From: Notolepis coatsorum
Taxonomy: Eukaryota > Chordata > Actinopteri > Aulopiformes > Paralepididae
DNA: 64,000 bases
Assembly: GCA_963971535.1 (NCBI GenBank)
Contig: OZ020593.1
Coordinates: 19,763,681 to 19,827,680 of the forward strand
Direction of reading: 5' to 3'
Part shown: one piece after another, positions 13,251 through 53,317 of the stretch
Layout of the letters: each line of letters opens with the position of its first letter
How positions within the stretch are numbered: the first letter of the stretch is position 1
The notes under the pieces: generated by a model
Database searches by the model: none
Seen by the model: the letters and a program-made list of their open reading frames with translations, nothing else
Told to the model about the DNA's origin: nothing
Position numbers and translations under genes: made by a program

Positions 13251-15886
13251 GTCTATAGTGTCAGACACTAATTGTAATTTTAAAAACGGATACTGCTGTA
13301 ATATAAAGTGAAATTCTACCATGCCTCAATGTATCAACTTTAAACATACACTAAATGTTAATGTTAGAAATGTTAATTTCCATTATTTCCACCATGTGCA
13401 ACATTTCCTAAGAACAGCAATGTCCATTCTATCAACTCCAAAACTGTGCTATGAGCTAAATTCTCCCAGTGCATGCAGAAGTAGAATTGCTGTCTTGTTT
13501 TGGATGAATGAGTAGAAATGAAAAACGGAAATCTTCTTTTATTAAAGTAGTTTTGACATGTGATAAATGTAGCACCCTGAAAATATGGCTATTATTCAGA
13601 AGTGCTGACTTGCCTTTTATCTCCCCTGGTGCACCAAGGCATACTAACTAGTTTCCATTAATATTCCCTCGAACAATGACGCGGGCGCCTCCTTCTTCTA
13701 CCGGCTGGAATATGGATTATAAACAGTATCACTGAATCATATTCTACCATCCAGTTTTCCCTGTGTGACTAGTTGGCGGTACCAGCAGGGGGCGGTGGCA
13801 GGCAGAGAGTGTACGAGAGAGAGACGGGAAAGGAAGCAAGCCAATGGAGACGGAAGAGGGAGAACGAGCCTCTTCGAGTTTGGACTTTGATGTGATCAGA
13901 CGTGTCTCGACAGAGCCCCCGTGGTGTGGTCCACACGGGCGAACATATTGAACTTGAGTATATGACGGGTTATCCCAGAAGGACCCGTGATAGTGCGTGA
14001 GTAAGAGAAACTGAACCCAAGGACTAACGTCCATAGGTAGCGTGTTATAGTAGCAGTGTGACGGTATAAGTAGCATGCTGCTAACGGCTATATTGACTCC
14101 AGTGTACACCGAGCGCGGGGCGCTGAAGAAGACCGTGGTATAGTCAGCCACGTTGCGCAACAGTATAACCATATAGCAGGTGGGCTGTTTGGAACCCAGA
14201 GAGTAGCTTCAGTGTAAGGTAGGGCAAGTGTATGGTGGCGCGTCAACCCAGCGCCGGCTGTCAACAACTCGTCTTCTCGGCTCCGGCGGTCGACAGCCCA
14301 GTACGGGAGTTCTTCGTCCAGCAGAGGTCGCCATCACCCAGCACACGCTCTCAGCCAGCTACTGCCCTCTGCTCCAGCCCCGCTTGCTAGCGCCCGCGAC
14401 GAGAGCGTTCAACGCCATCTTGCTACCTGGACGGTGGTGGCACGGCGAGGCCGCCATTTTGGTTGAGTACAATAGGGCGTCAATGCTCCGGATCTATTAC
14501 ACAGTACACAGTGTGGTGCGGCCTACGGGCGAAGCTAATGGTTGCTAACTACAGTTCATAGGGGTACCCCATCAACATTACATGCCGGCATTAGCATAGG
14601 ACTTTTGTTCTGGTACAGTGGGCCCACAATTTTGATTTCCTTTGAGTGTGATAACGTGTTGGTTCTTTAATAATAATTCCCATTTGAGTAACCCTTTCCC
14701 TGTGGGGAGGTTACAGACCTGGTGCATCATAAGTAAAGCCTTGGAGATGTATTAGTCTTGCCATATAATTAAAGCCTGATAGAGGTATTACACATGGTAC
14801 TGACCCAGACGTGGGCGATGAGTCAAACACATTGAAGTATATTATCCCTGATACTAACCCAGAGGTGGGTGTATAATATACGTGTCTATAAGGTATTGAG
14901 TTACACACGGAGCCATAGTAGGACTTCAGTCCATTCGACCACTCCTATTAAATCATTGTAACTGAACAGTACAATTAATATAAAGACTTAAATGGGGTTC
15001 TGTGTGCGTGTCCATTCCTGTGCCCAGTATTAACTCTTTTGGTGTGGGTAACGTATATATGATTAACCCCTTCCTACCCAACTCTTCCCTTTTCATTATA
15101 AGGTTTCTAGTGGTCATCAAGGGAGGGTACTGCTTGCGGGAGGAACGAATCTATTTATGCATATCAGTCACTAGGTGTGGGAGGGTTAACGGAGGTAATC
15201 AGGGAAGTGAGAGCGAGTTGGGGAGTACTGCTGACCGCCCCGGAGAGGCGAGGAAGACCAGAGTACCAAACCAGGTTGGTAAATCCCGGGCCCCATTCAC
15301 TCCCACTACTGGGCCCCAGGTTGACGTTCCAGGCCCAAAGACGAGGGTGCAGTCAGACGGAGCTCTACTGTGTCCAGCTACATTTGCTCTTCATTCATAT
15401 TACAAAAGTTATACTGGCACGGCTAATACAGCAATGGATTATGGGTAAATGCAACGTTAAAGCAGTGCCAATGTAAGACTGACTTTACATTAAACGAATG
15501 ACAATAATATAGTATAAAGTAGGGTATTATTTGGACTAAAGAATGGTGTTGCCTCACCCTACTCGCATGTTGAGGGAGAGCACCATACATTATACACTGA
15601 GAAACCACGGCCGAGAGTGAGCTCTCGGGGAACAACCCCACTTTGCCGGTAAACTCCTCTAGATGCCCCGATTTAAAATTGTTCACGACAGTAGACATAA
15701 TGCTACGTAATAGCATTTAGCGGGGTAACGTTAATGTTAGCTAGCTTGGTACTATGACCTGTGACGGGGAAAAGGCGACAGCGGACAGCCTAACAGACAA
15801 ATAGCGGCTGTGTACTGAACAACAGGCTGCCTACTGCTTAAACAATCATGTTAGCGGTAGAAGGGAACTCATTTTGTGCAAAAATG
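13251..15886. other. 2.6 kb unassigned, moderately GC-rich sequence
   Basis: No ORF longer than about 150 codons is present and none resembles a protein I know. 13680-14570 and 15180-15400 are richer in G+C and CpG than the surroundings. ATTAAA-like signals lie near 14946. It could be a decayed LTR, an old promoter/UTR region or a repeat I do not know. It ends abruptly where similarity to CERT1 exon 1 begins. Confidence 0.35.
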
Positions 15887-15990
15887 GAAACCAGAGCTGG
15901 AACTCGTCTGGTTCTTCAGAAGAAGATTTGGAGCCGGATTCGGGACACCTCCCTGTCAGTGGTATCGAGTTCGGCGGAGTTCTTAGCAAG
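15887..15990 (+). pseudogene. duplicate of CERT1 coding exon 1 (start codon lost)
   Basis: From AACCAGAGCTGGAACTC onward this matches the real exon at 31858-31971, including TTCGGCGGAGTTCTTAGCAA and the GTAAGC donor at 15991. In the CERT frame it reads NQSWNSSGSSEEDLEPDSGH then LPVSGIEFGGVLSK. It lacks the GIAGIA insertion of the real exon. The ATG at 15884 is one base out of frame. The CERT frame is open back to a TAG at 15802-15804 without any ATG. Upstream sequence does not match the real gene's upstream. The exon is probably dead, although the splice donor could still be used. Confidence 0.9.
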
Positions 15991-16062
15991 GTAAGCTACA
16001 TGTGTTTGTAAATCTGGTATGTCATAAATGTATAGATGTAGCAGTACTGTCTATCTGTATGT
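15991..16062 (+). repeat. left part of a LINE 3'UTR, split by element A
   Basis: TTTGTAAATCTGGTATGTCA to CTATCTGTATGT matches the LINE 3'UTR at 41818-41880. The match resumes at 30849 with ATGTCATATATGTTATGATG. This shows that 16063-30848 is an insertion. Confidence 0.88.
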
Positions 16063-17121
16063 GGGTCAATGACGTGACGCCTATTTTTTCTGTCCCACTG
16101 AATTTCTTACCTTAAAAAAAACATTAAAATTCATAAAAAGATTACATGTATCTCTAATACCTTCCCCATATACAGACCCACTCTAACTCCTCCAAACATT
16201 TGAGTTATTGGTAATTTTTCTGCTATCTGAAGTGTCAAATGTCCATGTGGGGCGACGGTCCAGCATTGACTTCTATTTGGACAACCGGCTTAAAATCACT
16301 TTAAATCTTTTTAAATATTTCCCTTGCCCTATTTGGCATAATTTCAAACATGTTTTGCATTCATTGACAAAATTATGAAGCATTTGCACATATACTTCCA
16401 TCATAATATACAAACGAATGTTGTCCGCATATGTTAATTTTATGAAATATCATCTGGGGCGACCATCAAGAAAACACAATTGTGGGACTTTTATTTTGAA
16501 ACCACCTCAAGGACAGGATGTTGCATCAGCCAGTCACATGTGAGGGACCCAGAGAAACAACTAGCAGGTTAGTAAGTCTCTTTCATATTGGCAAATAAAT
16601 CTCTTTTTTAACTGCTGTAATGTAGTTGCCACTTTTTGATGTCTTGTGGGACGACCGCCCCAAAACTGTGAATAATACGTTTGATCTGAAAATCTATATT
16701 TTGATGATGAATTTGATAGTGACATGTGGTAAGAGCTAGCTAGTTTGGTTTCTGTAGCTAATGGTTAGCCTGTAATATTTGACTGACCTTAAAAACATCA
16801 TCTGGGCGACCGAGTATCATGTGGGGCGACCACTGCTGAGTGTTTTAGATGATAGATATATGTCCTGTATTTGTAGTTTCTGTATATTTATATTTTATTC
16901 ATTTATATACATAAAGTTCTTTGTTTTAGCATAACTCTTTGTATACTTTAACATATATTTTTCAACATTTCTGTAATTTTTCATTCCTATTTAGGAATGA
17001 CTTTCTTTTTTAGTATTGTACAATCTTACGAGAATTTTTTTTAAACGGTATAGCATGACATTCCATTTAGGTAATTGTACATGTATTAGTCATGTTTAAC
17101 TAGTTTAACCTATTTTCTAGA

Positions 17122-17607
17122 TGGCACAAACAAGCAAACAGAAGACTGCTCACTACAGACGGCGGGTCAATGCAGACCCTACAGCAAGAGCCGACTATCT
17201 TGCCAGGAAAAGAGAAGGTAAAAAAAACTATAGGTAGGCAACATGCAGTATATTTTTCTCTGGTGTATTTCAAACTGTCATGTTAGTAGGATTAGGAATG
17301 ACATTTTCTGTAATATCTTGAACTTAAGTTTGTATGTAATTTAGCCCACCAGAATCAGTATCACAGTATACACCATTGTTTCAGCTACCAGAGAAGAAAA
17401 CAACAGGGCAAGATTCCATATGTGAAGTCAGATGAGCTATCGGAGAGGGAGAAGGCTGCATCCAGAGGTTACAGGGAGAAGGAAAAAGATGGAAAAGGCG
17501 ATGCTGGACCTGACACCACCATCCATGGAGAACACTCCACCAGTTCTGGCTGGTGTCGAAGTAGAGAAGAGCAGCAGGGCAAGCTGTGGTGGATCCCCTA
17601 CCTCTAA
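17122..17607 (+). pseudogene. two-exon N-terminus of a transposon-encoded basic protein, frameshifted
   Basis: Exon 1 starts at the ATG at 17122 and reads MAQTSKQKTAHYRRRVNADP then TARADYLARKREG. A donor at 17234 (TATAG|GTAGGC) and the acceptor TTGTTTCAG ending at 17380 join in frame to YQRRKQQGKIPYVKSDELSE then REKAASRGYREKE. This Arg/Lys-rich YRRR-type head resembles the N-terminus of a large family of uncharacterised, probably transposase, proteins in fish and cnidarians (from memory, not searched). After about 17480 another frame (MLDLTPPSMENTPPVLAG) looks more protein-like, suggesting a frameshift. No catalytic domain follows. Confidence 0.55.
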
Positions 17608-17941
17608 ATGAGGATTTGAATCATCACTAACATTTACTTTGATTCTACAGTAGGTTTAACTTCCCTTGAAACCATAGGTTATATATCCAGCTCATGATCA
17701 ACAGTGACATATTTCAACAATAAATGTTCAGTGGATTGCACTGTGCAACATCTCCATTATAATCTGATCAAAGTTTGTTTCGTGTTTGATATATCTTTGG
17801 GGAATATTGACTGTAGGAGCCAAAGCTATATTGTATTGTATGAATGTTTATGTTTATTTTTATAACCTTACATTGACACGGCATTAGGAATATTGATTGG
17901 ATTTAGATAAACTCATTGAACCGTCTTATTTTGTCATAATA
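17608..17941. other. element A interior, no gene
   Basis: AT-rich spacer between the truncated coding region and the 45-bp array. AATAAA-type signals are present (17720) and nothing else is recognised. Confidence 0.4.
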
Positions 17942-18172
17942 GAACATTCTAGAACATTTGTGATGTCACAGTATGATGTCATGACTGAACGTTCTAGAAC
18001 TTTTGTGATGTCACACTATGATGCATGATCAAACGTTCTGGAACATTTGTGATGTCACAGTATGATGTCATGACCGCACGTTCTAGAACATTTCTGATGT
18101 CACAGTATGATGTCATGAACGAACATTCTGGAACATTCGTGATGTCACCGTATGATGTCATAACCGAACATT
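17942..18172. repeat. 45-bp tandem array with heat-shock-element and CRE-like motifs
   Basis: About five units start at 17942, 17987, 18031, 18076 and 18121, with a partial sixth at 18166. Each begins with GAACATTCTAGAAC or a variant, which fits the nGAAnnTTCnnGAAn heat-shock-element pattern. Each also holds two TGATGTCA octamers, one base from the CRE TGACGTCA. It lies inside element A, outside the hAT. Confidence 0.85.
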
Positions 18173-18518
18173 AATAATTTAACTAAATGTAAAAAATATC
18201 AGTGTTTTGTTTTTTGGTGTGCTTCTTATTCTAGGTGTTCAGGTTGCCTGATTTGTTAAAACATGCACATGTACCTCAATTTGAAATGCCTGCAGTTTAC
18301 CATGAGATAATATAAAAGGAACTAGGGATGGCACCAATCCGATACTCAGTATCGGTATTGGTTCGATACTGGCCAAATTCACAGGATTGGATATCGGAAA
18401 AAGTATTTTCCGATCCGATCCAGCCCGTAAAGCATGCCATCACGTGAACAGTAGTAGCGTGACAACAACGTTAGCATTAGCTAAACGTAAGTCAACTTGT
18501 TAGCAGCGCGCCACGATC

Positions 18519-19100
18519 ATGTCAGCTGTGTGGAGTTATTTTAAGCTCAAAGAAGAGAAAGGCAAAACAGCCTGTGGTGTTATGCTAATGTGTGTGCATT
18601 AATACGACAGAGTACAGGCCACCGTACTGGGGTCACAGACAGGTACACAGGGCAGAGTAGACTAAGCGGATAATAACGGACCTGTGTGGTGGAGCTAACA
18701 GAATGAAGACACGCACAAACAAATACAGAGGACTCGCATGTATACTTGTGGAATAACACGACACAGCCAAGTGTAATATCTGCGACGCAAGTATTTCTAG
18801 GGGTGGCAGCAACACTGGAAACTTCAACACCACACAACACTTGCAGATTAATCTTGGAAAGGGAGTATGCTGAGTTCATATGTGCAATGAATGCCAAGAG
18901 GAAACGTTTTGTCGCAGCAGCTAACATAGCTGGAAACCATTCAGAAGCGAGAGAAACTCCCTGCAGACAGTAACAAAGCAAAGCTGAAGAAAACCGGGAA
19001 AATAACCACATTTATTGTGCTGGACGACCAGCCCCTTTCTGTTGTTGAAAATGTAGGTTTCCGACGCTTAGCCTCACTTCATGTTGCCAAACCGTCATTA
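18519..19100 (+). pseudogene. hAT transposase N-terminal remnant (BED finger)
   Basis: ATG at 18519 gives MSAVWSYFKLKEEKGKTA. A different frame at 18769 gives KCNICDASISRGGSNTGNFN followed by TTQHL, the core of a BED finger. A further frame near 18983 gives KITTFIVLDDQPLSVVENVG then FRRL, the conserved segment after the BED domain of hAT transposases. Frames are broken by indels and the RNase-H-like catalytic core is absent. The protein would normally bind the TIRs and cut the element. Confidence 0.8.
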
Positions 19101-19379
19101 TCTCTGACACGGCTATCTCAAATAAGTACAATGTTGTGTTTCTTTTTCAAATGTAGCCAAGAGTAAAGACCCTAACCCTATCAAAACAGCAGTCAAAGTG
19201 TATATTTTCAGCACTAGACACGAGGACAGGAAGCAGTCATGAAATCGCTGTAGTCTTATTAACGTATTAACTAAATAATTTGAACAAAATAAAAAGCAGC
19301 AGCACTATTGCATAACTGAGTCATGTGTGGTATGTATTTCTTCCTTTAGGGGAGTTTTTGATGTTTTATAGATGGCTAG

Positions 19380-20814
19380 TGTAACTGAGGGGTACAATTC
19401 CCTGACTGTATTACTAGATATGATACTTACTACCACTACCTTTGTACTTAATATTCGGCCACCCAGTACACGGCATAAATATATTATCATGAACACTCTC
19501 ACGTAGATGAAACGGATCCAACACAAATGTACGAATTAGAAACAGGTCTTTATTTCCTACACAGCGATGGTGTGTAGAATAAGCACTTAATCACTTAATT
19601 ACATTTATGAATTGAAATAGTATGCACTTTTATGGCAAGGAGTATTCGTCGGTATATCAATAGATAATGTCCAATCTCTGAAGGCGCAGGTGGTAAATAT
19701 ACGACCTGGAATAGTTAAGGAATAACAGCAATGATACTTTAATGATTATAGGCTGGATACACTAGAGGGGGTTAATCCGGTCGCTTGTAAGCCGACAGGA
19801 GTAGGAGGGGGGGGGGGGTAGAATCCAGCTGCCTCGTCCGGCCAAGGGTATCCCAGGAGAACCCACTGTAGTGCCGTTCAATGCGCCGGCGATCCTTGGA
19901 CCACAGATGAAAGCAGGTGGACTCTTTGTGGGCCGGCTCTCTCCGGTCCACGGGGGAGAGATGTGGAGAGACCTCGTCTTGCAGAGCGTCTCCTCACCTT
20001 GCGTCCTCTCCAGGGGGGGGGGGTTCCAACACACGGTAGTGTCGGGGGTCTTTATCCATAGAATAATCAAAGTATCCAAAGCATAATCCGTGCCTGGGAA
20101 GGCGGGCTGTCGTCGGTAGAATAATCCGGTATACAGGTCCACTCGCTCGTCGGCTCTGGGGCTCCTCGGGTGCAGCTTCACATAGGGTCAACCACCCTGG
20201 GTAAGCAGCCAGTTCTCTGCCCGAAACGATGGGGTACTGACTACGGTAGTATTCTCACCGCACGAAGCACTATATATTAACAGACTATTATTAGCTTAAT
20301 AGACTACGTCCAACTCGACGATATAGTGCCAAATATGACTATTCAAATATTAATATACACGATGTCTCAATACCGATGGTAGGCCGAACTTGGCCTTACT
20401 CCCACACGTGGCATCGCGGGGAGGCTTTACGTCTGTGACTCTATTGGAGGGTAAGAAACTGGACTGAAAAGAAAGTCCTACTTTAGTAGCGCAGTATATA
20501 TACGCACTATGAACAAATAGTCCCATTAGTGGTGCGGTAGCCAGATTCCTACGCGGAACTAGGACTTGTTCGTACATGTCGAGCGGTACGTTTGAACTGG
20601 GTCTGAGGGGTATGGCAGCCTGGCACCAAGGTCTCGACCAATAGTAGAATGGAGACTATTATGGGATGTTCAGTAGGCTAGAATGGATATTCAATGCATA
20701 TTGTACAAGGAATATACAAGGGATATCAGGGAATATTAGAGAATATACAAATACAATTAAATATATATATATAAATAAATATATATATTCGGTTTAATCT
20801 GGCCCTTCACAACA
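19380..20814 (-). repeat. 3' LTR of the BEL/Pao element
   Basis: On the minus strand it begins TGTTGTGAAGGGCC and ends CCTCAGTTACA, giving TG...CA termini. It matches 27086-28520 over its full length. The ORFs inside, including a 139-codon frame, are repeated in both LTRs and have no recognisable product. Confidence 0.97.
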
Positions 20815-20826
20815 GCCACCCCCTGA
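20815..20826 (-). promoter_or_regulatory. polypurine tract of the BEL element
   Basis: Read on the minus strand, TCAGGGGGTGGC abuts the 3' LTR. This is where plus-strand DNA synthesis would start. Confidence 0.7.
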
Positions 20827-20923
20827 ATAGGTCCCAGACCTAATCAGTTAAACGGAGACAGATTAATCGCGTTGTCTATTTACACATAAGGGTTTGCTGT
20901 AGGGGTCAGTCAACTTCACAAAG

Positions 20924-23900
20924 TCATAGGGTTGTAGGGTCATGGTCATCATCAATTGTGTCTGGGAGTCGAGGCAGTTCTATGAGCCTTGCCACGGGAC
21001 GGGTGTAAGTGCGACCCTGGACGAGCACTTCAGCTGCTCGGACCTTGCCGTCGGCACCGGTGATCACTTTGCTTACGCGGCCGGCCGGCCACATAGCTCT
21101 GGGCAGTGATTGATCAATAATCATGACGACTGTTCCTTCTGTCAAATTGTCTCTCTCCTTTACCCACTTCTGGCGGGTCTGTAGAGACGGTAGGTAGTGC
21201 AGTAGGAAACTGTTCCAAAACTTGTCGGCTAATACTTGGCTGTACCTCCACATTCGTCGGCCGTTCGCTTCTTCAGGCCGGTACATTGTCTGGGGTAATG
21301 TGGGATCTAGCCGCCCCATCAGGAGTGTGTTGGGGGTAACTGGGTCGATATCCGCCACATCACTGGAGACATATCCGAGGGGCTTCGAGTTAAGTACTCC
21401 CTCAATCTCCGTGAGGACTGTCATTAGGACTTCTTCCGCCACAGTCTGGGCCCCAAGTACTGCGTACAGGGCTGTCTTTATGGAGCGCACTTCTCGTTCC
21501 CAAGTGCCACCGAAGTGGGGTGCGTTTGGGGGGTTGAATTGGAAATCAACCTGTGCTGGAGCGAGGTGGGTCTTAAGTTCTGGGCCCATAGCTTGGAAGC
21601 TCTCTCTCAGCTCTCTTTCGCCGCCTTTAAAGTTTGTCCCATGATCGGACAATAGGGTAGACGGTCTTCCTTTCCGTGATATGAATCTACGGAAGGCCAT
21701 AAGGAATGAGTCTGTGCTCATGGTCGGGAGAAGCTCGATGTGTATCGCTCTGGTGGTCATGCATTTGAATACAATACCCCACCGCTTCTCGGTTCCTCTT
21801 CCTTTCTTTATGTGCAGCGGGCCAAAGCAGTCCATACCCGTTGAGTGGAATGGCTTGTCACCGATTCGGAGGCGACATGGAGGAAGGTCAGCCATCCTTG
21901 GTATGCTGGGCTGCGCGCGCCACTTGCGGCAGTCTAGACATGTTCGTTGGAAGCGTCGTACCGCCTCTCTTCCTTGTAGGATCCAGTAACGACGTCTGAT
22001 TTCCGCGAAGACTCTTTCTGCTCCTGCGTGATGTACATCCTCATCGTATTTCTTTATAATCAGCTCTGTGACCTTGTGTCGGCTGTTCAATACGATCGGG
22101 TATTTAATGTCATCTGGTAGATTGGGGGCTCTGCGTAGGCGACCACCCACTCTGATGAGGGTGTGAGCGTCGCTCTCGGGGGCCAGGTGAATTAATCTGC
22201 TGTCGGATGGGACGGGCTTTCCTCCCTGTAGACAGGCCAATTCATCGGGGAACGAGTCTCTCTGGGCTCGCTGCAGTAGAAGCAATTCTGCTTCCTCGTA
22301 GTTAGCTGCTGACATGTCAGCGGGGGACTTGCACTCCGGGTGGTACCGCAGGAATGTTCTTTGTTGTGCACTCTCTATGGACGTGCAATCGTTTATGTTA
22401 GGGTCGGTGGAGGCTACGGTGCTCAATCCACAGAACACAGACTTCTTAATTTCCACCTCCTCTGGACTTGCTTCCCTCGGGATAGGCATGGGCCACTGTC
22501 CTTCCGGGAGTCTTAGGAATGCGGGGCCGTCACTGTAGACATTGCGACGGGTGAGGTCATCCAGGGGCATCCCCCGGGTGATGACGTCAGCTGGGTTCTG
22601 TTTTGTATCAACGTAGCGCCACTCTGTTTCTCCGGTTAACTCTTCGGTTAAGTCTTGAATCTCGGTGACTCTGACTCCCACGAAGACTTTGTACTTGCAT
22701 GAGTCCGATTTGATCCAGGCGAGTACCGTCGTGGAATCTGACCACAGGATTGTTCTAGACACCGGTATGGTGAGCTCACGTTGGATGAGCGTGGCTAGGT
22801 GCGCTCCGGCTAGGGCTGCGCAGAGCTCTAGACGTGGGATAGATTGTTGCTTGCGTGGGGCTATTCTCGAGCGGGCGAGGACAAATGCTGTGTAGATCTC
22901 TCCCCCCTGGTCTTGGGCCCGTAAGTAGGCTACTGATCCGTATGCGACCTCTGGGGCGTCACTGAAGACGTGTAAGTCCATTTTACATGTCTCTGGCCTC
23001 ACCGTGGGTGGGAAGTAGCTTCGGCGCATATTAACGCCTGGGAGTGAGTGGAGCTCCATCTCCCACTCTCTCCAGGTGGATGCAAGGTGTGCGGGAATGG
23101 GGTCGTCCCAGCCCTGGTCCTTGTCCCACAATGCTCGTACAATCATTTTTGCCCTGGTGGTGTACGGTAGAATACATCCTAGCGGGTCATATTGTCGGGC
23201 GAGTGTTGTGTACACACTCCGTCTGGTGGTCGGCGCCGCCGCCGGCCTTCCCTGTTCCGTAGTCAGGGACTTGTGTCTGTAGTGAAGCGAATCTGTTTTG
23301 AATCGCCACACCAATCCCAGGGTCATCTCCTGGGCTTCTCCCGGGATTGTAGCCATCCAGGTCTCGCTGCTGGCTGCCTTGTCCTCGGAGGAGAGGCTGC
23401 GCAGTACTTGCGGATCGCTGCTGGCCCACTGCCTGAGATCAAAGCCGCCTTTGATCAATGAGGCGCGGAGTTTAATCAGGAGAGCCTCGGCTTCTTCCTG
23501 GGTTGAAAGGCTTTGTAGACAGTTGTCTACGTAGAAGCTGTTCTTTACGCTGTGTCGGACCTCTTCGTCCGCTGCTGGGTCCTCTGCTACATGTTTCTGT
23601 AGTGCAAATGTCGCACAGCAGGGGCTGCACGTCGTTCCGAAGGGGAGGACTTCCCATTGGTAGATGGCTGGGTGCTCATCTCCTGGCTTCTCTCTCCATA
23701 GGAACCGTAACAGGGGCTTGTCCGCCTCTACTAATCTCACCTGCAGGAACATTCCTTTAATGTCCCCGCTGATGGCCACCTTTTCCTGGCGGAAGCGGAG
23801 TAGAACGCCGAGTAGGGAGGGGCCGAGTGTGGGACCGGGCAGTAACTCTTTATTCAGATTTTGGGATCCGATCTGGTAGCTGCAGTTAAATACTATGCGG

Positions 23901-25444
23901 TCTTTACCGTTGTGATGGACCTTGTGGTGGGGCACGTACCACGATTCAGTGGTCTGGTCAGCCTCTTTAATGTCCATCTTTGTGACGTGGCCCGCTGTGA
24001 TGAGCTTCTCAATCTCAGCGCGGTATACACTCTCTTGGGCGGGGTTCTTGGCTAAGCGCCGCTCCGTGTTCAGCAGGTACCGTTCTATGGCGTCTGTCTT
24101 GGCGTGGAAAGTAGGCATTCCTTCTCGCCGCAGGAGTGGCGTGGCGTATCTCAACACGCCGTTGACCGGGACTCTCTTGGTCCCTGTCTCGAGGAGGTGA
24201 ATGGCGTAAATGTCATCTTTAGAGCGAATGTCTTTCTTTCCATTCTTAAAGGGCATTTGTTCCAAGCTCCATAGCCGCTCTACGTGTTGCAGGAGTGCGG
24301 TTTCTCCCTCTGTGACTCGGGAGTGGAGACATCTAGTGGCTGTACTTCGGTTGAGAGATTTGGCGAGCGGGCCTTGGAGAGTCCATCCCAAACGGGTCTC
24401 GACTGCTGCAGGACAGCCTCGGGGTCCGGTATGAACCCGGTCTATCGGGACAATGAGGTCTGCATGGTCGGAGCCTATCAACAGGGTCGGCATAGCATTG
24501 TCTATGAGCGGGATCGGTAACTTGCGCAGATGTGCATATTTCTCCATCAGCTTGGCGACGGGGCATGTGTACCGCGACAGTCCTATTTCTTGGCTGGTGA
24601 AAGCGTCTGCAATCTGGTACCGTCGCTCAGGCTGGCCGCTTGCTGCGATAGAGAATGAGACATTCTCGCCCTTTATCGTCTTCAAATCTCGTCTTATTGT
24701 CCGAATTGTCATTTGGGTTTTGCTTCCCCGCAGCCCTAGCTGGGCCGCAGCGGAGGCGAGCAGCAGGGTCTTCTCTGACCCGTCATCGAGGACGGCGTAA
24801 GTGTCCAGGACTTTATTCTGGTAGCTTAGTGTCACACGCACTACTTTTAGGAGTACTCGGGCTCCACTGCTGCTGGCGGGATCGATGTACATGACGCTCG
24901 CTTTGCGGCTGGATGGTGCAGGTGAAGGGCGCCGTCTGTTACTGTCGTGAAGTATGTCCAGATGGGCTCCATCGCACTTGGTGCACCTTTTCTTTAAGCG
25001 GCATTCAGCTGCCATGTGTGAGCGCGCACAGCGAAAACAGCGCTTGTTGGACTTTATCCATTGACCTGTTTCCTCCGCGTTCAGCTTGGGGAAGGAGTCA
25101 CATTGCGCTAGCCAGTGTTCTTTCTCACAGTAGGGGCACACTATCTTCCACTTCTCCGTTCTGGAGGGGGTACTGTGGCTCCTGCTGCTCGGTACTGACT
25201 CCGATTGGTGCATCACAGTCACCGATCTTCTTCCATCATTTAGTCGTCTGGTTCCTTCTCTGGAGCCAGGGGTGCTCCGTCCGAATGTATCTAGCCGTAG
25301 GCTGCTGACTTCTCTCGCCAGGAAGTCTGCTAGATCGAGGAGGTTCGGTTCGGGGCCATTCGGGTCTCTGTGGTCCCTCTGCCTGACGAGCGGGCGGCAG
25401 CTTCTCCAGGATCCTTTCCACATTTGAGTTGGCGTAAAGTTCAT
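20924..25444 (-). CDS. BEL/Pao pol polyprotein (protease, RT, RNase H, integrase)
   Basis: This 1506-codon frame begins with zinc-knuckle-like Cys/His motifs (about residues 103-166, CPYCEKEHWLAQC and CFRCARSHMAAEC). An aspartic protease core follows (VLDDGS, about 218-223). RT includes GDIKGMF (about 560) and FYVDNC (about 637-642), where BEL elements often carry YVDN/YVDD. RNase H has FSDAPE (827-832), RLEL (871-874), WSDST (901-905) and NPAD (950-953). Integrase has an HHCC-type region (about 1138-1175) and acidic residues near D1205, D1267 and E1316. The C-terminus resembles the domain usual after BEL integrases. It is uninterrupted. The listed ATG lies in out-of-frame gag sequence; genuine pol similarity starts near residue 20. 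It lies in the +1 frame relative to gag. Confidence 0.95.
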   Translation of the reverse strand: MNFTPTQMWKGSWRSCRPLVRQRDHRDPNGPEPNLLDLADFLAREVSSLRLDTFGRSTPGSREGTRRLNDGRRSVTVMHQSESVPSSRSHSTPSRTEKWKIVCPYCEKEHWLAQCDSFPKLNAEETGQWIKSNKRCFRCARSHMAAECRLKKRCTKCDGAHLDILHDSNRRRPSPAPSSRKASVMYIDPASSSGARVLLKVVRVTLSYQNKVLDTYAVLDDGSEKTLLLASAAAQLGLRGSKTQMTIRTIRRDLKTIKGENVSFSIAASGQPERRYQIADAFTSQEIGLSRYTCPVAKLMEKYAHLRKLPIPLIDNAMPTLLIGSDHADLIVPIDRVHTGPRGCPAAVETRLGWTLQGPLAKSLNRSTATRCLHSRVTEGETALLQHVERLWSLEQMPFKNGKKDIRSKDDIYAIHLLETGTKRVPVNGVLRYATPLLRREGMPTFHAKTDAIERYLLNTERRLAKNPAQESVYRAEIEKLITAGHVTKMDIKEADQTTESWYVPHHKVHHNGKDRIVFNCSYQIGSQNLNKELLPGPTLGPSLLGVLLRFRQEKVAISGDIKGMFLQVRLVEADKPLLRFLWREKPGDEHPAIYQWEVLPFGTTCSPCCATFALQKHVAEDPAADEEVRHSVKNSFYVDNCLQSLSTQEEAEALLIKLRASLIKGGFDLRQWASSDPQVLRSLSSEDKAASSETWMATIPGEAQEMTLGLVWRFKTDSLHYRHKSLTTEQGRPAAAPTTRRSVYTTLARQYDPLGCILPYTTRAKMIVRALWDKDQGWDDPIPAHLASTWREWEMELHSLPGVNMRRSYFPPTVRPETCKMDLHVFSDAPEVAYGSVAYLRAQDQGGEIYTAFVLARSRIAPRKQQSIPRLELCAALAGAHLATLIQRELTIPVSRTILWSDSTTVLAWIKSDSCKYKVFVGVRVTEIQDLTEELTGETEWRYVDTKQNPADVITRGMPLDDLTRRNVYSDGPAFLRLPEGQWPMPIPREASPEEVEIKKSVFCGLSTVASTDPNINDCTSIESAQQRTFLRYHPECKSPADMSAANYEEAELLLLQRAQRDSFPDELACLQGGKPVPSDSRLIHLAPESDAHTLIRVGGRLRRAPNLPDDIKYPIVLNSRHKVTELIIKKYDEDVHHAGAERVFAEIRRRYWILQGREAVRRFQRTCLDCRKWRAQPSIPRMADLPPCRLRIGDKPFHSTGMDCFGPLHIKKGRGTEKRWGIVFKCMTTRAIHIELLPTMSTDSFLMAFRRFISRKGRPSTLLSDHGTNFKGGERELRESFQAMGPELKTHLAPAQVDFQFNPPNAPHFGGTWEREVRSIKTALYAVLGAQTVAEEVLMTVLTEIEGVLNSKPLGYVSSDVADIDPVTPNTLLMGRLDPTLPQTMYRPEEANGRRMWRYSQVLADKFWNSFLLHYLPSLQTRQKWVKERDNLTEGTVVMIIDQSLPRAMWPAGRVSKVITGADGKVRAAEVLVQGRTYTRPVARLIELPRLPDTIDDDHDPTTL

Positions 25445-27041
25445 ACTTCCCCTTCTCTCTTTGCGCTCCCAACATCCCTACCAGGGACTGCACTCTGATG
25501 GACAGGTCGTCCAGTGCTCGATTGTCTATTGCTGGGGGTAAGCGGTCGATGTGTCGGATCTCCTGGATCACGTAATCCCATATGCGCCCATACCTCTGGT
25601 CCAATGCTACCAGCGCTGCTGTGTATGGGGTGGTGGAAGTCGCGTAGGCGAGCGCTATATTATGTGCGCGGGGCACCTTTAAGTGCTGCAGTAGGATGGC
25701 GTTTTTGTGGCGTTCATCCAATACATCCACCAACATGGTCTCCAGACACATGCGGAGTTCTGTATACTGGGCCCGGTTCTCTTGGGTGAAGTCGGGTACC
25801 ATAGGCGTGCCAATGTATGACGCTGACTGTGGATACATCGGCGAGCGTTGGGGGAGAGGCCTCCTAGGCGAGTCTCCTCCCGCTCCTTGGTATGGGCTGG
25901 TACCGGCAGTGTACCATGGCCCGCTTGTCCAGGTGCTGTTCCTCGGTGCGGGTCGTGCGTCGTGCTCACCCGTGTATAGAGTCGGGGGTCTGTAGCGCAG
26001 CTCCGCGGGAGTATAGCCTGGGCTGTACCGGACCTCCTGGTCCGGTAGAGTACTGTGCTGTCTTCGGGCGCGGTTCTCCTCCTCTTCCTCTTCGTCTTCA
26101 GTTAGGTCATCCAGTGCTTGTAGTCTCTGGTTTAGCCTCTCCACAGGATATGCTGCTCCTTCCCGGTTGCTAGGTCTCGCTTGGACCGGTGGGGGGAGGT
26201 GGTCTGTGGGGGGTATAGACCTCGTCTGTTGGTCAAGTTCAGGGTTGTTTACTCGGCTAGGGGATGCCGCCCTGGAGGTGTGTCTAGACGAGTTCCTGGA
26301 GCCTCTGGCGGAGGGAGAGGGTGTTGTCCGTCTGATCAGCTGTTCTATTAGTTGCGCTTGCTGTCTGTCGCGCTCTGCGTCCCGTAGAGCACCAGCAGCT
26401 GCTCGCTGGCTGTCTGCTCGGTCTCGGGCCACATTCTCTTCCATCTGAATGCGTCTTATTTCCAGGCGTATGTGCTCTTCTTCGCTCCGTTGCTGTAGCT
26501 GCAATCGATCGCGTTCACCCTGGAGTCTATCGCGTTCAGTAGAGGCTTTCAGGCTGACGAGGAATGCCTGCTGTAGGGTCCTCTCTGCCTCGCTGGGAGA
26601 AGGCGGTTGTATAGGGGAGCCTTCCCTCGGGGTACTCCTTGCGGAGCCTTGGAGCTCTATCTCCACGGTGCTCTCCCCGTCTTCTTCCGTGCCGAGTTCT
26701 CTCTCGGTAGCGTTGTATTCCTCCCGGGACTCATCGGGGACTACTTCTTCAGTACTGGCGGGGTGTGAAGTCATGTCTGGTTCCCACTGGTCCCCACCGT
26801 GAACTTGGTCAGTTACATTAGAGCCCGTAGGGGCCTCTATGGTCGGGGTAGTCTGGGCGTTGGGGTTAGACATACTTTTACTTTCTAGTTTTACCGCGTT
26901 TACTGTTAGTAGAAGACTAGGTTGTTGACTGACAGCGTAAGCCTCTAAGTACTGAGGGAGCCGTCGTTCGCGCTGCGGGCGTTGGTTAGGAGGATCGTTT
27001 CGTGGAGTGTTCATCATAGGCCATTTCAATATTAATAACAC
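25236..27041 (-). CDS. BEL/Pao gag-like ORF
   Basis: The 601-codon frame starts just inside the 5' LTR; a second ATG pair at MMNTPRND could be the true start. Residues about 160-245 are Glu/Arg/Gln-rich and likely coiled coil. Residues about 400-545 (from VPDFTQENRAQYTELRMCLE to SNVERILEKLPP) match the capsid-like gag segment of BEL elements. After about 25392 the frame loses similarity and runs to a stop at 25236, while the matching continuation is in the pol frame. Most BEL elements have one gag-pol ORF, so this copy has either a 1-bp indel or uses +1 frameshifting. Confidence 0.9.
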   Translation of the reverse strand: MLLILKWPMMNTPRNDPPNQRPQRERRLPQYLEAYAVSQQPSLLLTVNAVKLESKSMSNPNAQTTPTIEAPTGSNVTDQVHGGDQWEPDMTSHPASTEEVVPDESREEYNATERELGTEEDGESTVEIELQGSARSTPREGSPIQPPSPSEAERTLQQAFLVSLKASTERDRLQGERDRLQLQQRSEEEHIRLEIRRIQMEENVARDRADSQRAAAGALRDAERDRQQAQLIEQLIRRTTPSPSARGSRNSSRHTSRAASPSRVNNPELDQQTRSIPPTDHLPPPVQARPSNREGAAYPVERLNQRLQALDDLTEDEEEEEENRARRQHSTLPDQEVRYSPGYTPAELRYRPPTLYTGEHDARPAPRNSTWTSGPWYTAGTSPYQGAGGDSPRRPLPQRSPMYPQSASYIGTPMVPDFTQENRAQYTELRMCLETMLVDVLDERHKNAILLQHLKVPRAHNIALAYATSTTPYTAALVALDQRYGRIWDYVIQEIRHIDRLPPAIDNRALDDLSIRVQSLVGMLGAQREKGKYELYANSNVERILEKLPPARQAEGPQRPEWPRTEPPRSSRLPGERSQQPTARYIRTEHPWLQRRNQTTK

Positions 27042-27066
27042 TATATTAATATTACACTAATTACCA

Positions 27067-27083
27067 TCCGGCTCGAAGGACCA
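27067..27083 (-). promoter_or_regulatory. primer-binding site complementary to tRNA-Tyr
   Basis: Plus-strand TCCGGCTCGAAGGACCA equals the 3' end of vertebrate tRNA-Tyr including CCA. On the element strand it reads TGGTCCTTCGAGCCGGA, two bases from the 5' LTR. It would prime minus-strand cDNA synthesis. Confidence 0.88.
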
Positions 27084-27085
27084 AT

Positions 27086-28520
27086 TGTAACTGAGGGGTA
27101 CAATTCCCTGACTGTATTACTAGATATGATACTTACTACCACTACCTTTGTACTTAATATTCGGCCACCCAGTACACGGCATAAATATATTATCATGAAC
27201 ACTCTCACGTAGATGAAACGGATCCAACACAAATGTACGAATTAGAAACAGGTCTTTATTTCCTACACAGCGATGGTGTGTAGAATAAGCACTTAATCAC
27301 TTAATTACATTTATGAATTGAAATAGTATGCACTTTTATGGCAAGGAGTATTCGTCGGTATATCAATAGATAATGTCCAATCTCTGAAGGCGCAGGTGGT
27401 AAATATACGACCTGGAATAGTTAAGGAATAACAGCAATGATACTTTAATGATTATAGGCTGGATACACTAGAGGGGGTTAATCCGGTCGCTTGTAAGCCG
27501 ACAGGAGTAGGAGGGGGGGGGGGGTAGAATCCAGCTGCCTCGTCCGGCCAAGGGTATCCCAGGAGAACCCACTGTAGTGCCGTTCAATGCGCCGGCGATC
27601 CTTGGACCACAGATGAAAGCAGGTGGACTCTTTGTGGGCCGGCTCTCTCCGGTCCACGGGGGAGAGATGTGGAGAGACCTCGTCTTGCAGAGCGTCTCCT
27701 CACCTTGCGTCCTCTCCAGGGGGGGGGGGTTCCAACACACGGTAGTGTCGGGGGTCTTTATCCATAGAATAATCAAAGTATCCAAAGCATAATCCGTGCC
27801 TGGGAAGGCGGGCTGTCGTCGGTAGAATAATCCGGTATACAGGTCCACTCGCTCGTCGGCTCTGGGGCTCCTCGGGTGCAGCTTCACATAGGGTCAACCA
27901 CCCTGGGTAAGCAGCCAGTTCTCTGCCCGAAACGATGGGGTACTGACTACGGTAGTATTCTCACCGCACGAAGCACTATATATTAACAGACTATTATTAG
28001 CTTAATAGACTACGTCCAACTCGACGATATAGTGCCAAATATGACTATTCAAATATTAATATACACGATGTCTCAATACCGATGGTAGGCCGAACTTGGC
28101 CTTACTCCCACACGTGGCATCGCGGGGAGGCTTTACGTCTGTGACTCTATTGGAGGGTAAGAAACTGGACTGAAAAGAAAGTCCTACTTTAGTAGCGCAG
28201 TATATATACGCACTATGAACACATAGTCCCATTAGTGGTGCGGTAGCCAGATTCCTACGCGGAACTAGGACTTGTTCGTACATGTCGAGCGGTACGTTTG
28301 AACTGGGTCTGAGGGGTATGGCAGCCTGGCACCAAGGTCTCGACCAATAGTAGAATGGAGACTATTATGGGATGTTCAGTAGGCTAGAATGGATATTCAA
28401 TGCATATTGTACAAGGAATATACAAGGGATATCAGGGAATATTAGAGAATATACAAATACAATTAAATATATATATATAAATAAATATATATATTCGGTT
28501 TAATCTGGCCCTTCACAACA
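27086..28520 (-). repeat. 5' LTR of the BEL/Pao element
   Basis: Same length and termini as 19380-20814. It would hold promoter and transcription start for the minus-strand element. An AT-rich TATATATATA block near 28467-28496 lies close to its 5' tip. Confidence 0.97.
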
Positions 28521-28814
28521 GCTAGGTTAAACACAGGTTTTTGTTTTTTAAGGGAGTATCGGATGGGTATCGGTATTGGCAGATACTCAAGGCTGTGATA
28601 TCAGTATCGGACATGAATAAGTGGTATCGTGCCATCCCTAAAAGGAACTGATACAACTGTGTTGTAGTTGTTTAGCGTTGATTTCATCCATGCAACTATG
28701 TTGGTGGTTATTGTTTATTGACTCTATAGAACTGTGTTGTGGTTTAATTTTTATTCCATACATACAACTCTGTTTACCTTTTATTATTGACTTAAATTGT
28801 TAATCCCTGTCCAA

Positions 28815-29748
28815 TGTGACTACCATCACAAAAGTGATGCTACTTAACCCACCTTCGTGCATATCAGAGGATCTGACATGGTCAACACACATAGACACAG
28901 TAGTAAAGAAAGCGAAGCAGCGCCTCTACCACCTGAGACAGTTAAGGAAGTTCAGAGTATCGGGGAAGATACTCCAGTCCTTCTACTCAGGAGCTGTAGA
29001 GAGCATCTTGACCGGAAACATCACTGCCTGGTATGGAAACAGCACGGCACAGGACAAGAAGGCCCTACAGAGAGTGGTGCGCTCAGCCGAGCGTACCACG
29101 GGTATTGCGCTACCTACCCTGCAGGTTCTATACAACAAGAGGTGCAAATCCAGAGCCTGCAGAATAATGAAAGACCCCCACCACCCCAATAACAGCCTGT
29201 TCCAGCTGCTGAGGTCAGGCAGACGCCTGCGAACCCCAGCTACTAGGACGGAGAGGCTTAGGCTCAGCTTCTTCCCCCAGGCCATCAGAGCCTTGAACAA
29301 TGAACATTGAGAGCCACAGAAACAACTATCCACACACAAGCACACACAAGCACACACACGACACGCACGCTGAGCACGCTCACACACTAGCAGCCACTTT
29401 AACACTCATGCCGCACACACGCACACTTATGGCCAAGAGGAAAGGCCACTTTAAATTAGTATAACAACAGGAACAGTGTATGCACTACTAAAGCTACCTA
29501 GCATGTCCTATATGCTCTGTAAATACTATTTACAGATACCGAGATGTCACACCATGTTACCTGTTTATTGCACTGTTGTTTTTATTGGATTTTATTATAT
29601 GTTGTACCACTGTATTTTTATTGGATTCTATTATATGTTGTACCACTGTATTGCACATCGTCGCGGCCCCGCGGGCAAGACCACCCGCATTTCATTGTAT
29701 ACCTGTATGCCGTGACAATTAAAACTCTTGACTTGACTTGACTTGACT
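28815..29748 (+). mobile_element. 5'-truncated LINE, C-terminal ORF end and 3'UTR
   Basis: The frame reads ISEDLTWSTHIDTVVKKAKQ then RLYHLRQLRKFRV, and later KALQRVVRSAERTTGIALPT and LRLSFFPQAIRALN. This is the C-terminal end of a common fish LINE ORF2 beyond the RT catalytic region. The 3'UTR ends in AATTAAAACTCTTGACTTGA with a tandem TTGAC tail at 29727-29748. It lies inside element A, right of the hAT. It is truncated and inactive. Confidence 0.85.
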
Positions 29749-30848
29749 TCTCGGTCTCATGCATTGACAAAACCAATGATGATATGAGGACATGAAAATG
29801 GACATTTGTGAAATGTTCAAGTTCCTGAAGCATGTAATGTGTATTGCACTTAAACTTTTTGAATGTTTAATGTTTTTAACATTTGTGATATTTGAATGTT
29901 CCTGACGAAGCTTGTAACCTACCGTGCCAAATGATTGACGGAGCTAGAGCCCCGGGAGTCGGTGTTGTATTTGTACAACACTGTGTACTTCGGCGCACAC
30001 CTCACATATCGGCATGGCTATCGACAGGCAACAAATAGGGCTTTAATTCGATATATATATATTGTATTAGAATATATGCACACCCGAGCCGGTAGAGGTT
30101 GCCAAAGTGCAAATCTTCCTCAAGAGGGCCCACATGTGGGCCCTCGCATGTTAACATGTTTTACTTTTGTGATATTTGAATGAATTGAAGAATATTTTTG
30201 TTGACCACTTGAAAAGATTGTAATAAAAACATTGTTCAGTTTTCTTTTGTCTGAACTGCATTGTGTAACATTTTAAATAGACTTTTAACTACTCTCATCA
30301 TTTGGGGCGACCATTTGTCATGCGGGGTAACCAATGATTGTCAATAACTGTACTAAATTCAAAATAGAATATCCATCAGTTTTGGCTCAAATATTAATCA
30401 CTGGTATACTATGCTTAAGTGGATACTATCTGTACACATTTTAAATCAGTTTTATGGGTTTTAGAGCATATATGGGTATTGTAACTGCATTACGAGGGAG
30501 ACACTGCCATTATAGAATAAACTTGTGAAATCATGGTTTACAAAAAATTAAAGGGCACACAAGCCTGTCTTTCTTAAGATGTATATTTAATTACTGATAC
30601 CTGTTAAAATATTAGTAATTTTAAGGAAATATATTAATTTTGAGATAAATTACGGTCGCCCCAAATGACTTTTATTAAGGCCATGTCCTATTAATTCAAT
30701 TTTAAAAACACTAAAATCTCTTAATTTGGGTTTTTTGCATAAATGCATGTATACACTACATTCCAAATGTTTGAAAAATGGCCAAATATATCCTTATTTT
30801 TTGTATTTTAAAATTGGCCTATTGAAAAGTCTTATCCGTCAATGACCC
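29749..30848. other. right portion of element A, no gene
   Basis: AT-rich sequence with GGGGCGACC at 30303 and its inverse near 30653. No catalytic transposase domain was found in any frame. Confidence 0.5.
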
Positions 30849-31013
30849 ATGTCATATATGTTATGATGAATTGAAAATGGGGGACCCTGGTGTAAACAAG
30901 ACTAAAGTCTTTCTCTGGTCTGCATCCCCTTAACAATTGTGTGTATTGAGCTGTACCGTATTGTACCCATTCTGCAATCTGTTAATAAAGTTTTCAATCA
31001 ATCAATCAAACCA
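30849..31013 (+). repeat. right part of the split LINE 3'UTR with CAAT tail
   Basis: Continues the 15991-16062 fragment: GAATTGAAAATGGGGGACCC, CTCTGGTCTGCATCCCCTTA and TTCAATCAATCAATCAAA. The same block recurs at 32035-32178, 40090-40195 and 41890-42050. Confidence 0.88.
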
Positions 31014-31319
31014 TGCGGCAGAATTGTTACAATAGCCGATCATCCATTTTCCCAATGATAAATCCCTATACGGGTGGAACCATATATCTATGGGTGGAAC
31101 AACCAGTGACGTCAGACTACACCTCCCTATAGAAGCAAATTGTACACTAGTACACACACATAGAGAAGGAGGAGTTTGTTTCCATGTAGGTTTAGTGACG
31201 TAGGCCAACAGCCAGCGCCCCTCCAACACACACACAGTCCCCTCCAACACACACACACACACACACACACACTGACACACGCGCTCACTCCCAACCCGAG
31301 CTCGAGCCCAGGCAGAGGC
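31014..31319 (+). promoter_or_regulatory. CERT1: probable CERT1 promoter region
   Basis: It lies between the LINE tail and the inferred 5'UTR exon. It contains a perfect CRE, TGACGTCA (31107-31114), and a half-CRE-like GTGACGTAGG (31195-31204). A short CA repeat occupies 31243-31272. No TATA box is obvious, as usual for housekeeping genes. The transcription start is not determined. Confidence 0.5.
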
Positions 31320-31502
31320 AGTACAGGGGATATGGCGTTTAGCGCGAGCTGTCATTTACACTGAGCCGAGGAGGAACAACAAGCTGAGGAAACGTATTGG
31401 ACGCCAGGCGACGGATTGACTGTGGAGGAAAACCGAAGTGTGAAATATTTTAATATTTTAATTTCAACCACACACTGCCACTTTTTGTGAACTGAGAAGA
31501 AG
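31320..31502 (+). other. CERT1: inferred CERT1 5'UTR exon
   Basis: Ends at GAGAAGAAG|GTACGC, a good splice donor at 31503. An intron of 327 bp would then end at the acceptor TTTCCCCTGCTCAG (31829) just before the start-codon exon. The 5' boundary is a guess. It is placed because the start-codon exon is preceded by a convincing acceptor, so an upstream noncoding exon is needed. Confidence 0.5.
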
Positions 31503-31848
31503 GTACGCTGACCGACGTTATTAGTTAGTAGCAAGAAAGGGGCGGGTGTGCTGACGGGACTATGTGTTTGCTAGCTACCGGTAATCTGTGCCAACGACCG
31601 GGTCAGGTGTAACAGTAGATGAGCCATAATCTACTAGCTCATTTTATATACAGTATATTACCGAAAAAAATCAATTTTAACGACGTGACACCTTTCTACA
31701 GTAACGTTGGTTCAACCAACGGCATATCTGACAAGCGTTCTCGGTTTCTATTTTCTTTTCTCGACTATTATAGCGTTGTGTAACAGTGTATGTCAAGTTG
31801 TTGTGTTCTTATTTTTTTCCCCTGCTCAGCTTGCTAAGGTTAGCCACC

Positions 31849-31971
31849 ATGTCTGACAACCAGAGCTGGAACTCCTCGGGTTCTTCAGAAGAGGATCTGG
31901 AACCGGATTTGGGACACCTCCCTGTCGGTGGCATCGCAGGTATCGCAGAGTTCGGCGGAGTTCTTAGCAAG
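31849..31971 (+). CDS. CERT1: CERT1 coding exon 1 (ceramide transfer protein N-terminus)
   Basis: The exon (probably 31830-31971) follows the acceptor CCTGCTCAG and has ATG in a good context (GCCACCATGT). It encodes 41 residues starting MSDNQSWNSSGSSEEDLEPD and ending EFGGVLSK at a GTAAGC donor in phase 0. CERT1 carries ceramide from the ER to the trans-Golgi; this segment is the acidic tail before the PH domain and its first residues. It is nine residues longer than the human N-terminus as I recall it, mostly through GHLPVGGIAGIAE. An AG|GT inside (31939/31940) is a possible cryptic donor. Confidence 0.95.
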
Positions 31972-31980
31972 GTAAGCTAT

Positions 31981-32178
31981 GTACTGTATTTGTAAATCTG
32001 GTATGTCATAAATGTATAGATGTAACAGTACTGTCATCACATGTATGTTATGATGAATTGAAAATGGGGGGACCATGATGTAAACAAGACTAAAGTCTTT
32101 CTCTGGTCTGCATCCCCTTAATTTAACAATTGTGTGTATTGAGCTGTACTCTATTGTACCCATTCTGCAATCAATCAA
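31981..32178 (+). repeat. LINE 3'UTR with CAAT tail, ten bases past the exon 1 donor
   Basis: GTACTGTATTTGTAAATCTG starts nine bases after the exon end and matches 41810 onward. It ends AATCAATCAATCAATCAC. A short internal deletion (near 32036) removes part of the 3'UTR. The same exon-LINE junction is present in the upstream duplicate, so the LINE inserted before duplication. Confidence 0.85.
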
Positions 32179-32664
32179 TCAATCACGTGTGTTGCTATGC
32201 TACTGGATGGGGTTTATTATGGCTGAGCACTTGCTGCAGTTTGACACCACTGGCTAGCTATCAAAAACAATAATCGTGATTCAGGGGGGTGTGGGGAGAG
32301 AAGCCACTGTCTTTATTAATGCTCCCCCAAGAATGTGACTCACTCTGGGCAAATATGCATTTGCTACATAAAATAGGTCAAATACATTTGCAGTTATCAG
32401 CAGCCAACAATATTGTTTCTGTTGATCCCACGGATTTATTAAGTCATTTTCAGGTGTCCTAAATATAGACTGTAAGACAAGCATGCACCTCCGTTGAAGC
32501 AATTTCCATGACCAACAACACCTCACATCTGTCAGTGAGTTATTTGATGGAGTTTCAACATTATAGGGATGCATCTGGGCAAAAAAAGGGTATCGGAACA
32601 TTCCAGGAAATGAAAGCAGACGCAGAATGACTTGATTTGCTGCATTTTTTATACACAAGCATTT
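32179..32664. other. intron 1, no feature recognised
   Basis: Mixed AT-rich sequence. The 181-codon minus-strand frame has no similarity that I know. Confidence 0.4.
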
Positions 32665-33573
32665 TAAAGGGATAGTTCTGATTTTTTTATACATGAAGTG
32701 GTATGAAATACTACTTGCCAGTAGTTTAATCATAGCCACGCCAGACACTCTTATCGAGTCCCGTGGCCGAAGTTCTGTCTGCGTTCTGAGCAGCTTCAGA
32801 CAGGCAGCACATGGGGTCCAGTACAAAAGTTACCCTAATAAGCCACATCGCAACATGCAAACAAACATTTTAACCAGCTAGCTAGCCCCAGTACGTAGTA
32901 AATACAATGGGATTCTATAAGAAACAAAATAGTTCCATAGTTGGTCTAAGTGACCAAGGAAACTATAAAAGAAGGAAGGGTCATCATCACGTCAGAATAC
33001 CAGCGTTCTATGCTCTGCATGGTGCCAGACTTTGGTGTTGTCAGTTCTATTGAAGCTTGTATTAAAATTCTAAATATAGCAGCTATCTGAGGAAATATCA
33101 ACTGATATATGGAACGTAATAGCTAGTTAACAATGCAAAAAAAACTGAGGTATCTGAGGTAATAGCCTGTTTAAATTACTGTTTAAGGGGATGGGGTTGA
33201 TTCAACTCAATGTCAACCGAACTGAAAGTTTCCACACTTGGCACCAATGTGTGTCCATGCGCTATTCAGTGACGTAATGACTCTTCCTTCTTTTATAGTT
33301 TCCTTGGGTCTGACAGAAGAATTGAGCGTTGGAAATACAAAAGGACTGTTGCATTCTGTTGTGTCTGGTTAAAACTTTGTATGTTGTGGTAGTGTGGCAT
33401 AAAAGTTTTTTTTGTTACCGGACCCTGTGTGCGACCTATCTGAAACTGCTCCACTTTCACAGAACACAGCCAGAACTTGGACGATGGGTCTCTGTAAATT
33501 AGCTAATGGTTATATATATCGTTTAGTCTACTGGCAAGTATTTCATACCACATTGTAAAAAAAATCTCTAATG
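32665..33573. mobile_element. MITE with about 50-bp inverted ends
   Basis: The left end TTTTAAAGGGATAGTTCTGA then GTGGTATGAAATACT..TTGCCAGTAG is mirrored by CTACTGGCAAGTATTTCATA then CCACATTGTAAAAAAAAT on the right. The 0.9-kb interior has no transposase. The TTAAAGGGATAGTTC tip is typical of a common fish MITE family. TSD not resolved. Confidence 0.7.
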
Positions 33574-52887: not shown

Positions 52888-53317
52888 ATGAATGAATGTG
52901 GATGAGAGCCTTGACATTAAGTGGTTGTTGTAGCTACGGCTGTGGGGGTGCTGGAGACATGATCCAATAGACGTTTATACGCCCGAGTCTCCTGAACACG
53001 GAGCGACCAATCGCAAGTCGATCGGCACTTTCTCGGCCGAGCTATAGTCGCTTTTCCGCACCTACTCCTGAACTACGCATGCGCAGATTGCCCACGGAGT
53101 CTAGGTTCATCAATCTGCGCATGCGTAGTTCGGGAGTAGGTGCGGGAATTTGGGAAAGCGACCATAGCTTGGCCGAGAAAGTGTCGATCGACTTGGGACT
53201 GGTCGCTCCGTGTTCAGGAGACTCTGTGTATAAAAGTCTACTGGATCATGTCTCCAGCAGCCACACAGCCGTAGCTACAACCATTAATGTCGAGGCTCTC
53301 ATCCACATTCATTCAGT
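52888..53317. repeat. 430-bp near-palindrome
   Basis: Arms of about 200 bp: TGAATGAATGTGGATGAGAG pairs with CTCTCATCCACATTCATTCA, TTGTAGCTACGGCTGTG with CACAGCCGTAGCTACAA, and TACGCATGCGCAGATTG with CAATCTGCGCATGCGTA. The loop is about 25 bp. No TSD or coding sequence. It may be a MITE or a palindromic duplication. Confidence 0.9.

Follow-up and report, generated by a model that had tools for sequence, protein, structure and literature searches.

The DNA immediately upstream of the CERT1 promoter of Notolepis coatsorum contains several mobile elements lying one inside another, together with a partial copy of a CERT1 exon. The locus raises the question of the order in which these sequences arrived and of how the exon was copied. 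The window analysed is the whole 64,000-nucleotide stretch at positions 19763681–19827680 of its contig, and copies of the elements were surveyed across the 3.42 Gb assembly. Comparison of the locus with these copies suggests, with a probability of roughly 0.8, that there were five separate arrivals: a dispersed repeat (T), a block of exon and LINE sequence, a DNA transposon (element A) with a hAT already aboard, and then a BEL/Pao element and an L2-like LINE. The kinds of event involved are all known and well documented, and BEL/Pao, hAT and L2-like LINE elements are ordinary components of fish genomes. As a worked case the locus may be instructive: reading the insertion order from nesting and target site duplications (TSDs) alone gets one step wrong, since one transposon may bring another along as cargo, and it is the copies elsewhere in the genome that settle the order.

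Structure of the locus

CERT1 was identified from a conserved N-terminal coding exon and a PH-domain exon downstream, both of which are present, and relatives were found. Exon 2 was placed near 42428 and exon 3 from 63945, by match to a CERT1 query. The stacked insertions that the first-pass annotation had described upstream of CERT1 are real, with boundaries exact to the base. The LINE 3′ end that it had found cut at 16062 and resumed at 30849 is uninterrupted at that point in nine other copies of the LINE, one at 41.8 kb in the window and eight fetched from the best 40 of 2793 candidates, the continuity of the eight being partly selected, as the query that ranked them was itself an unbroken LINE. 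The duplications that had been assigned to the hAT (at 18315 and 28641) and to the BEL/Pao element (at 19375 and 28521) were both confirmed. The figure of about 400 bp given, with A removed, for the gap between the copied exon and the inferred CERT1 5′UTR exon is fair, the distance from the end of the copied exon to 31200 being ~420 bp without A. Two layers had been overlooked, the L2-like LINE inside A and the outer repeat T. An artefact of assembly is very improbable: each of the inserted layers carries a TSD of its own or has its site empty in other copies, and the whole arrangement sits within a contig of 134 Mb. The features are listed in Table 1.

Table 1. Positions in the window of the features at the CERT1 upstream locus.
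Feature	Position	Strand	Remarks
Repeat T, left part	15646–15890		matches L057–L065
Partial copy of CERT1 exon 1	15889–15990	+	begins at codon 4, lacks a start codon, retains the GT donor
Copied CERT1 intron 1 start and first part of LINE 3′ end	15991–16062	+	
Element A, TIR DNA transposon with hAT as probable passenger	16063–30848		12-bp TIRs, 4-bp TSD
hAT remnant, probable A-family passenger	18323–28640		TSD AAAGGAAC 18315–18322 and 28641–28648
BEL/Pao LTR retrotransposon	19380–28520	−	two long ORFs; TSD GCTAG 19375–19379 and 28521–28525
L2-like LINE, 5′-truncated	28857–29746	+	(ACTTG)n tail; TSD CTTC 28853–28856 and 29747–29750
Stretch between 17-bp direct repeats, within A	29882–30182		29 of the 39 other A copies match at least 50 bp of it
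Remainder of copied LINE 3′ end	30849–31011	+	AATAAA, (ATCA)n tail
Repeat T, right part	31012–31137		~14 bases of T lacking before it; longest match reaches 31137
CERT1 exon 1, coding, parent of the copied exon	31849–31971	+	matched by the CERT1 query
Presumed parent of the copied LINE piece, a LINE 3′ end within CERT1 intron 1	31981–32184	+	no AATAAA

The outermost layer, repeat T, was searched for with its left part, and nine places (L057–L065) were fetched from the best 40 of 1605 candidates. In all nine T is unbroken, running from the left flank through ~14 bp that are absent in the window into the sequence that begins at 31012. The right-hand match extends over 118 to 126 columns in eight copies and 52 in L065, and this continuity was not selected, because the right part lay outside the search query. 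None of the nine fetched copies matched the exon-LINE block, which is thus an insertion into T. At 15836 other T copies have ~60–70 bp of extra sequence, which starts with GTAAGT in L057 and is not a clean intron.

Element A

Genome searches with the two ends of A gave the best 40 of 260 and 40 of 329 candidates, the window's own included. Forty stretches were fetched from these matches, two of which proved to be one copy, giving 39 other A copies, all chosen by best match to the ends of A. Two of them (L040 and L043) share a contig and have identical 4 flanking bases, and may be one duplicated locus. The 12-bp terminal inverted repeats (TIRs) that had been annotated are present as GGGTCAATGACG and GGGTCATTGACG and agree at 11 of the 12 bases rather than at all of them. 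The TSD of A at this locus is probable rather than certain, as ATGT (16059–16062 and 30849–30852), because the site is a variable ATGTC-rich stretch; a 4-bp duplication is supported by an exact 4-bp repeat in 12 of the 17 A copies for which both ends were obtained. With the BEL/Pao and L2-like elements removed, A measures 4746 bp in the window, and four of the 12 complete copies measure 4733–4787 bp, within a range of 4019–6150 bp.

Two short ORFs in A gave no Pfam match above cut-off, and a protein search with a 66-residue stretch returned nothing at E 0.1 among 27 candidates; A is apparently non-autonomous. Sola2-type elements are described in one source as having TIRs of 12–13 bp or longer and AT-rich 4-bp TSDs (PMC3627910). 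The 12-bp TIRs and 4-bp TSDs of A resemble these, but membership of A in this group is not established, because no transposase was recognised in A and several of its TSDs are not AT-rich.

The 17-bp repeat at 29882 and 30166 was considered as a TSD and rejected. No insertion is claimed there, because a diverged relative of A (L074) retains part of the enclosed stretch and 29 of the 39 other A copies match it; the stretch is therefore part of the A family. A 45-bp tandem array occupies 17942–18169 in A, and other A copies align across it. Read by eye, the flanks of one A copy (L018) resemble the LINE 3′ end that A interrupts in the window, at a base close by.

The hAT remnant as a passenger of element A

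The hAT remnant has TIRs (TAGGGATGGCAC) that are identical over their first 12 bases, an 8-bp TSD, and a weak match to the DNA-binding domain profile DBD_Tnp_Hermes (E 0.0069), its 16.5 bits falling below the cut-off of 20.5. The first-pass annotation had read the order of events at this locus as A, empty on its arrival, then a local hAT insertion and then BEL, and the nesting and the TSDs are what such an order would leave. The nesting and the late, locus-specific arrival of BEL stand. The step from A to hAT does not, since the hAT junction was found with the same TSD and at the same base in 33 of the 39 other A copies (left junction in 32, right in 30), and the hAT-empty site, a single AAAGGAAC, in none of the 39. 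Independent insertions at the same base are not credible, and a local hAT insertion after A has hardly any probability left; on the copies compared, that order is refuted for this genome. The remaining six copies have neither hAT junction and are broken or rearranged within the stretch read; one of these sequences, L053, reaches AAAGGAAC and then continues into other sequence.

When the genome was searched for the hAT-empty site, allowing up to 3 mismatches, three matches were obtained, and a reversed control pattern gave 0. Two of the matches, L074 and L075, are diverged relatives of A (local pieces 76–95% identical) in which a single AAAGGAAC links A-left to A-right. In the third, L076, an A copy, the start of the hAT is deleted, and this match was not counted. 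The shared junction, its absence in empty form from the 39 copies and the empty sites of the two diverged relatives together indicate that the hAT entered an A progenitor once and that A then spread with it. Element A probably reached this locus as an A+hAT composite of ~4.75 kb. Over the 45 common pairs divergence was similar in A-left (1.9%) and the hAT (1.6%), which is in favour of this reading; against it, the pairwise distances of the two parts showed only a weak correlation (r 0.28).

An empty orthologous site at 18322/28641, as proposed in the first-pass annotation, is accordingly expected to be absent in any species with this A insertion. As in other nested transposable elements of teleosts, one element lies in another and the arrangement is readable from the TSDs; the difference here is that the inner hAT would be a passenger of the A family and not a later local insertion. 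A narrow literature search found no account of nested transposons spreading together, which is no evidence of absence.

Insertions made at this locus

The BEL/Pao element has LTRs of 1435 bp that differ at 1 base and a 5-bp TSD. Its minus-strand ORFs matched RVT_1, Peptidase_A17, Integrase_H2C2 and DUF5641, all above cut-offs, and the upstream ORF of 601 aa had no family match. The site is empty, with the hAT flanks joined, in 30 of the 39 other A copies and unreadable in the remainder. Among the first 20 A copies whose site sequences were examined, one has a base change in GCTAG. The second element, 890 bp in length, has a 168-aa ORF that matched ALKBH8_N above cut-off and DNA_pol_phi weakly, with no reverse transcriptase model; it is a putative LINE, a label based on the occurrence of such ORF proteins in these elements and on its tail. 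Its site is empty in 31 of the 39 other A copies and unreadable in the rest. Judged by these empty sites, both elements are insertions made at this locus. They are adjacent and do not overlap, so that their relative order is not readable.

The fetched A copies differ by 1.2 to 1.8% on average depending on the segment, a low estimate because the copies were picked for high identity. Set against this divergence, a single LTR difference in 1435 bp makes BEL much younger than the spread of A.

In the proposed history, repeat T was in place first, at ~0.7 kb on the upstream side of exon 1. A copied segment of ~330 bp, which held exon 1 from codon 4 onward together with the first part of intron 1 and the LINE 3′ end behind it, then entered T with the loss of ~14 bp, as the other copies of T show. 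For the copying itself, which is inferred, a local event at the DNA level is most likely, with retrotransposition by LINE machinery next. Element A, with the hAT already aboard, followed into the copied LINE, and finally the BEL/Pao element into the hAT part and the L2-like LINE into A, steps that are shown by comparison with other copies. The locus offers an ordered series of insertions and one clear local exon copy beside its parent.

Origin of the exon-LINE block

A genome search with exon 1 gave two places only, CERT1 and this copy (both of the two candidates scored). From the end of the block to the parent exon downstream is 0.84 kb; without A, ~1.1 kb would separate the copied exon from its parent, both being on the same strand. 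No convincing flanking repeat was found as a TSD around the block; ~14 bp of T are missing instead. The N-terminal states GSSEE and GHLPV, common to the copied exon and CERT1, are absent in 236 of 236 relatives among the matches listed, so that the copying would be recent relative to the split from those species. Compared with the family majority, the copied LINE piece has 6 private differences and the CERT1 LINE has 15. They have one difference in common within the LINE, and this is also found in two of the nine family copies. A longer copy of the same LINE is present in CERT1 intron 1 at 41807–42048 and resembles the copied piece more closely (95.7% over 161 columns) than does the presumed parent (91.7% over 133). 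This counts against the proposed history, and the event may have included a switch to another copy of the LINE.

Local copying of DNA is the favoured explanation of the block. It could have taken one of two routes: a break in T repaired with a templated insertion, or a tandem duplication that spanned T-right to the LINE tail and was then reduced by a deletion of ~0.86 kb. Either route yields the order T-left, exon piece, LINE, T-right, promoter and exon. In templated insertions and local duplicative rearrangements a short nearby segment is copied, with microhomology and a small deletion. The block shows the same traits in its locality, shared orientation and single copy, in the ~14 bp lost at the site and in an AA microhomology, but its end coincides with the LINE tail, which under DNA copying would be chance.

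Retrocopying is the less probable explanation: a CERT1 pre-mRNA that ended at the intronic LINE 3′ end would have been inserted into T by target-primed reverse transcription (TPRT), with a small target deletion. This would fit the 5′-truncated start in exon 1, the 3′ end in the (ATCA)n tail and the unspliced sequence, as well as the 2-bp microhomology (AA) at the 5′ join and the ~14 bp missing from the target. Target-site deletions are given in one source as a possible outcome of TPRT (PMC2881922), and such deletions and microhomologies are described in another for 5′-truncated L1 insertions (PMC2912911). Against this stand the lack of a TSD and the position of the block: in a genome of 3.42 Gb no other extra copy was found, and this one ends 0.84 kb from its parent, in the same orientation. 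By our own estimate the chance that free retrotransposition would land so close is about one in a million, which favours local DNA copying, and no reason is known for a freely retrotransposed copy to land near its parent. The intronic LINE end lies ~10 bp behind exon 1, and it is conceivable, although improbable, that this allows LINE machinery to copy nascent CERT1 RNA nearby, giving a cis-local exon duplication. In LINE transduction and mRNA retrocopies a host exon and a LINE 3′ end are likewise copied to a new place; the block differs from these in being local and single, and a DNA route is at least as likely for it.

Coding potential of the copied exon

Over the 34 codons compared, the copied exon differs from CERT1 at 6 synonymous and 2 non-synonymous positions. 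The probability of 2 or fewer non-synonymous changes among 8 is 0.003 to 0.009 if neither branch was constrained, but no function of the copy follows from this, because constraint on the CERT1 branch alone would give the 6:2 pattern. Comparison with relatives did not clearly polarise the changes between the copied exon and CERT1. In the open frame that spans the copied exon (15805–16011) there is no ATG, and a role as a functional alternative first exon is unsupported. Nothing was found in support of a function for the copied exon, and a function is not likely. The LINE in the CERT1 intron is without the AATAAA signal that the copied LINE keeps. Selection need not be invoked for this loss, because two of the eight LINE copies fetched, read by eye, have shortened tails as well.

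Other features of the window

A search of positions 14000–33000 against Rfam at E 0.5 gave one match only, to snR67 and far under the gathering score, and no tRNA was found in the window. Two self-complementary segments of ~400 bp, at 12288–12687 (92.6%) and 52889–53315 (84.4%), are fold-back or MITE-like, and a minisatellite of ~36 copies of a 54-bp unit occupies 57382–59280.
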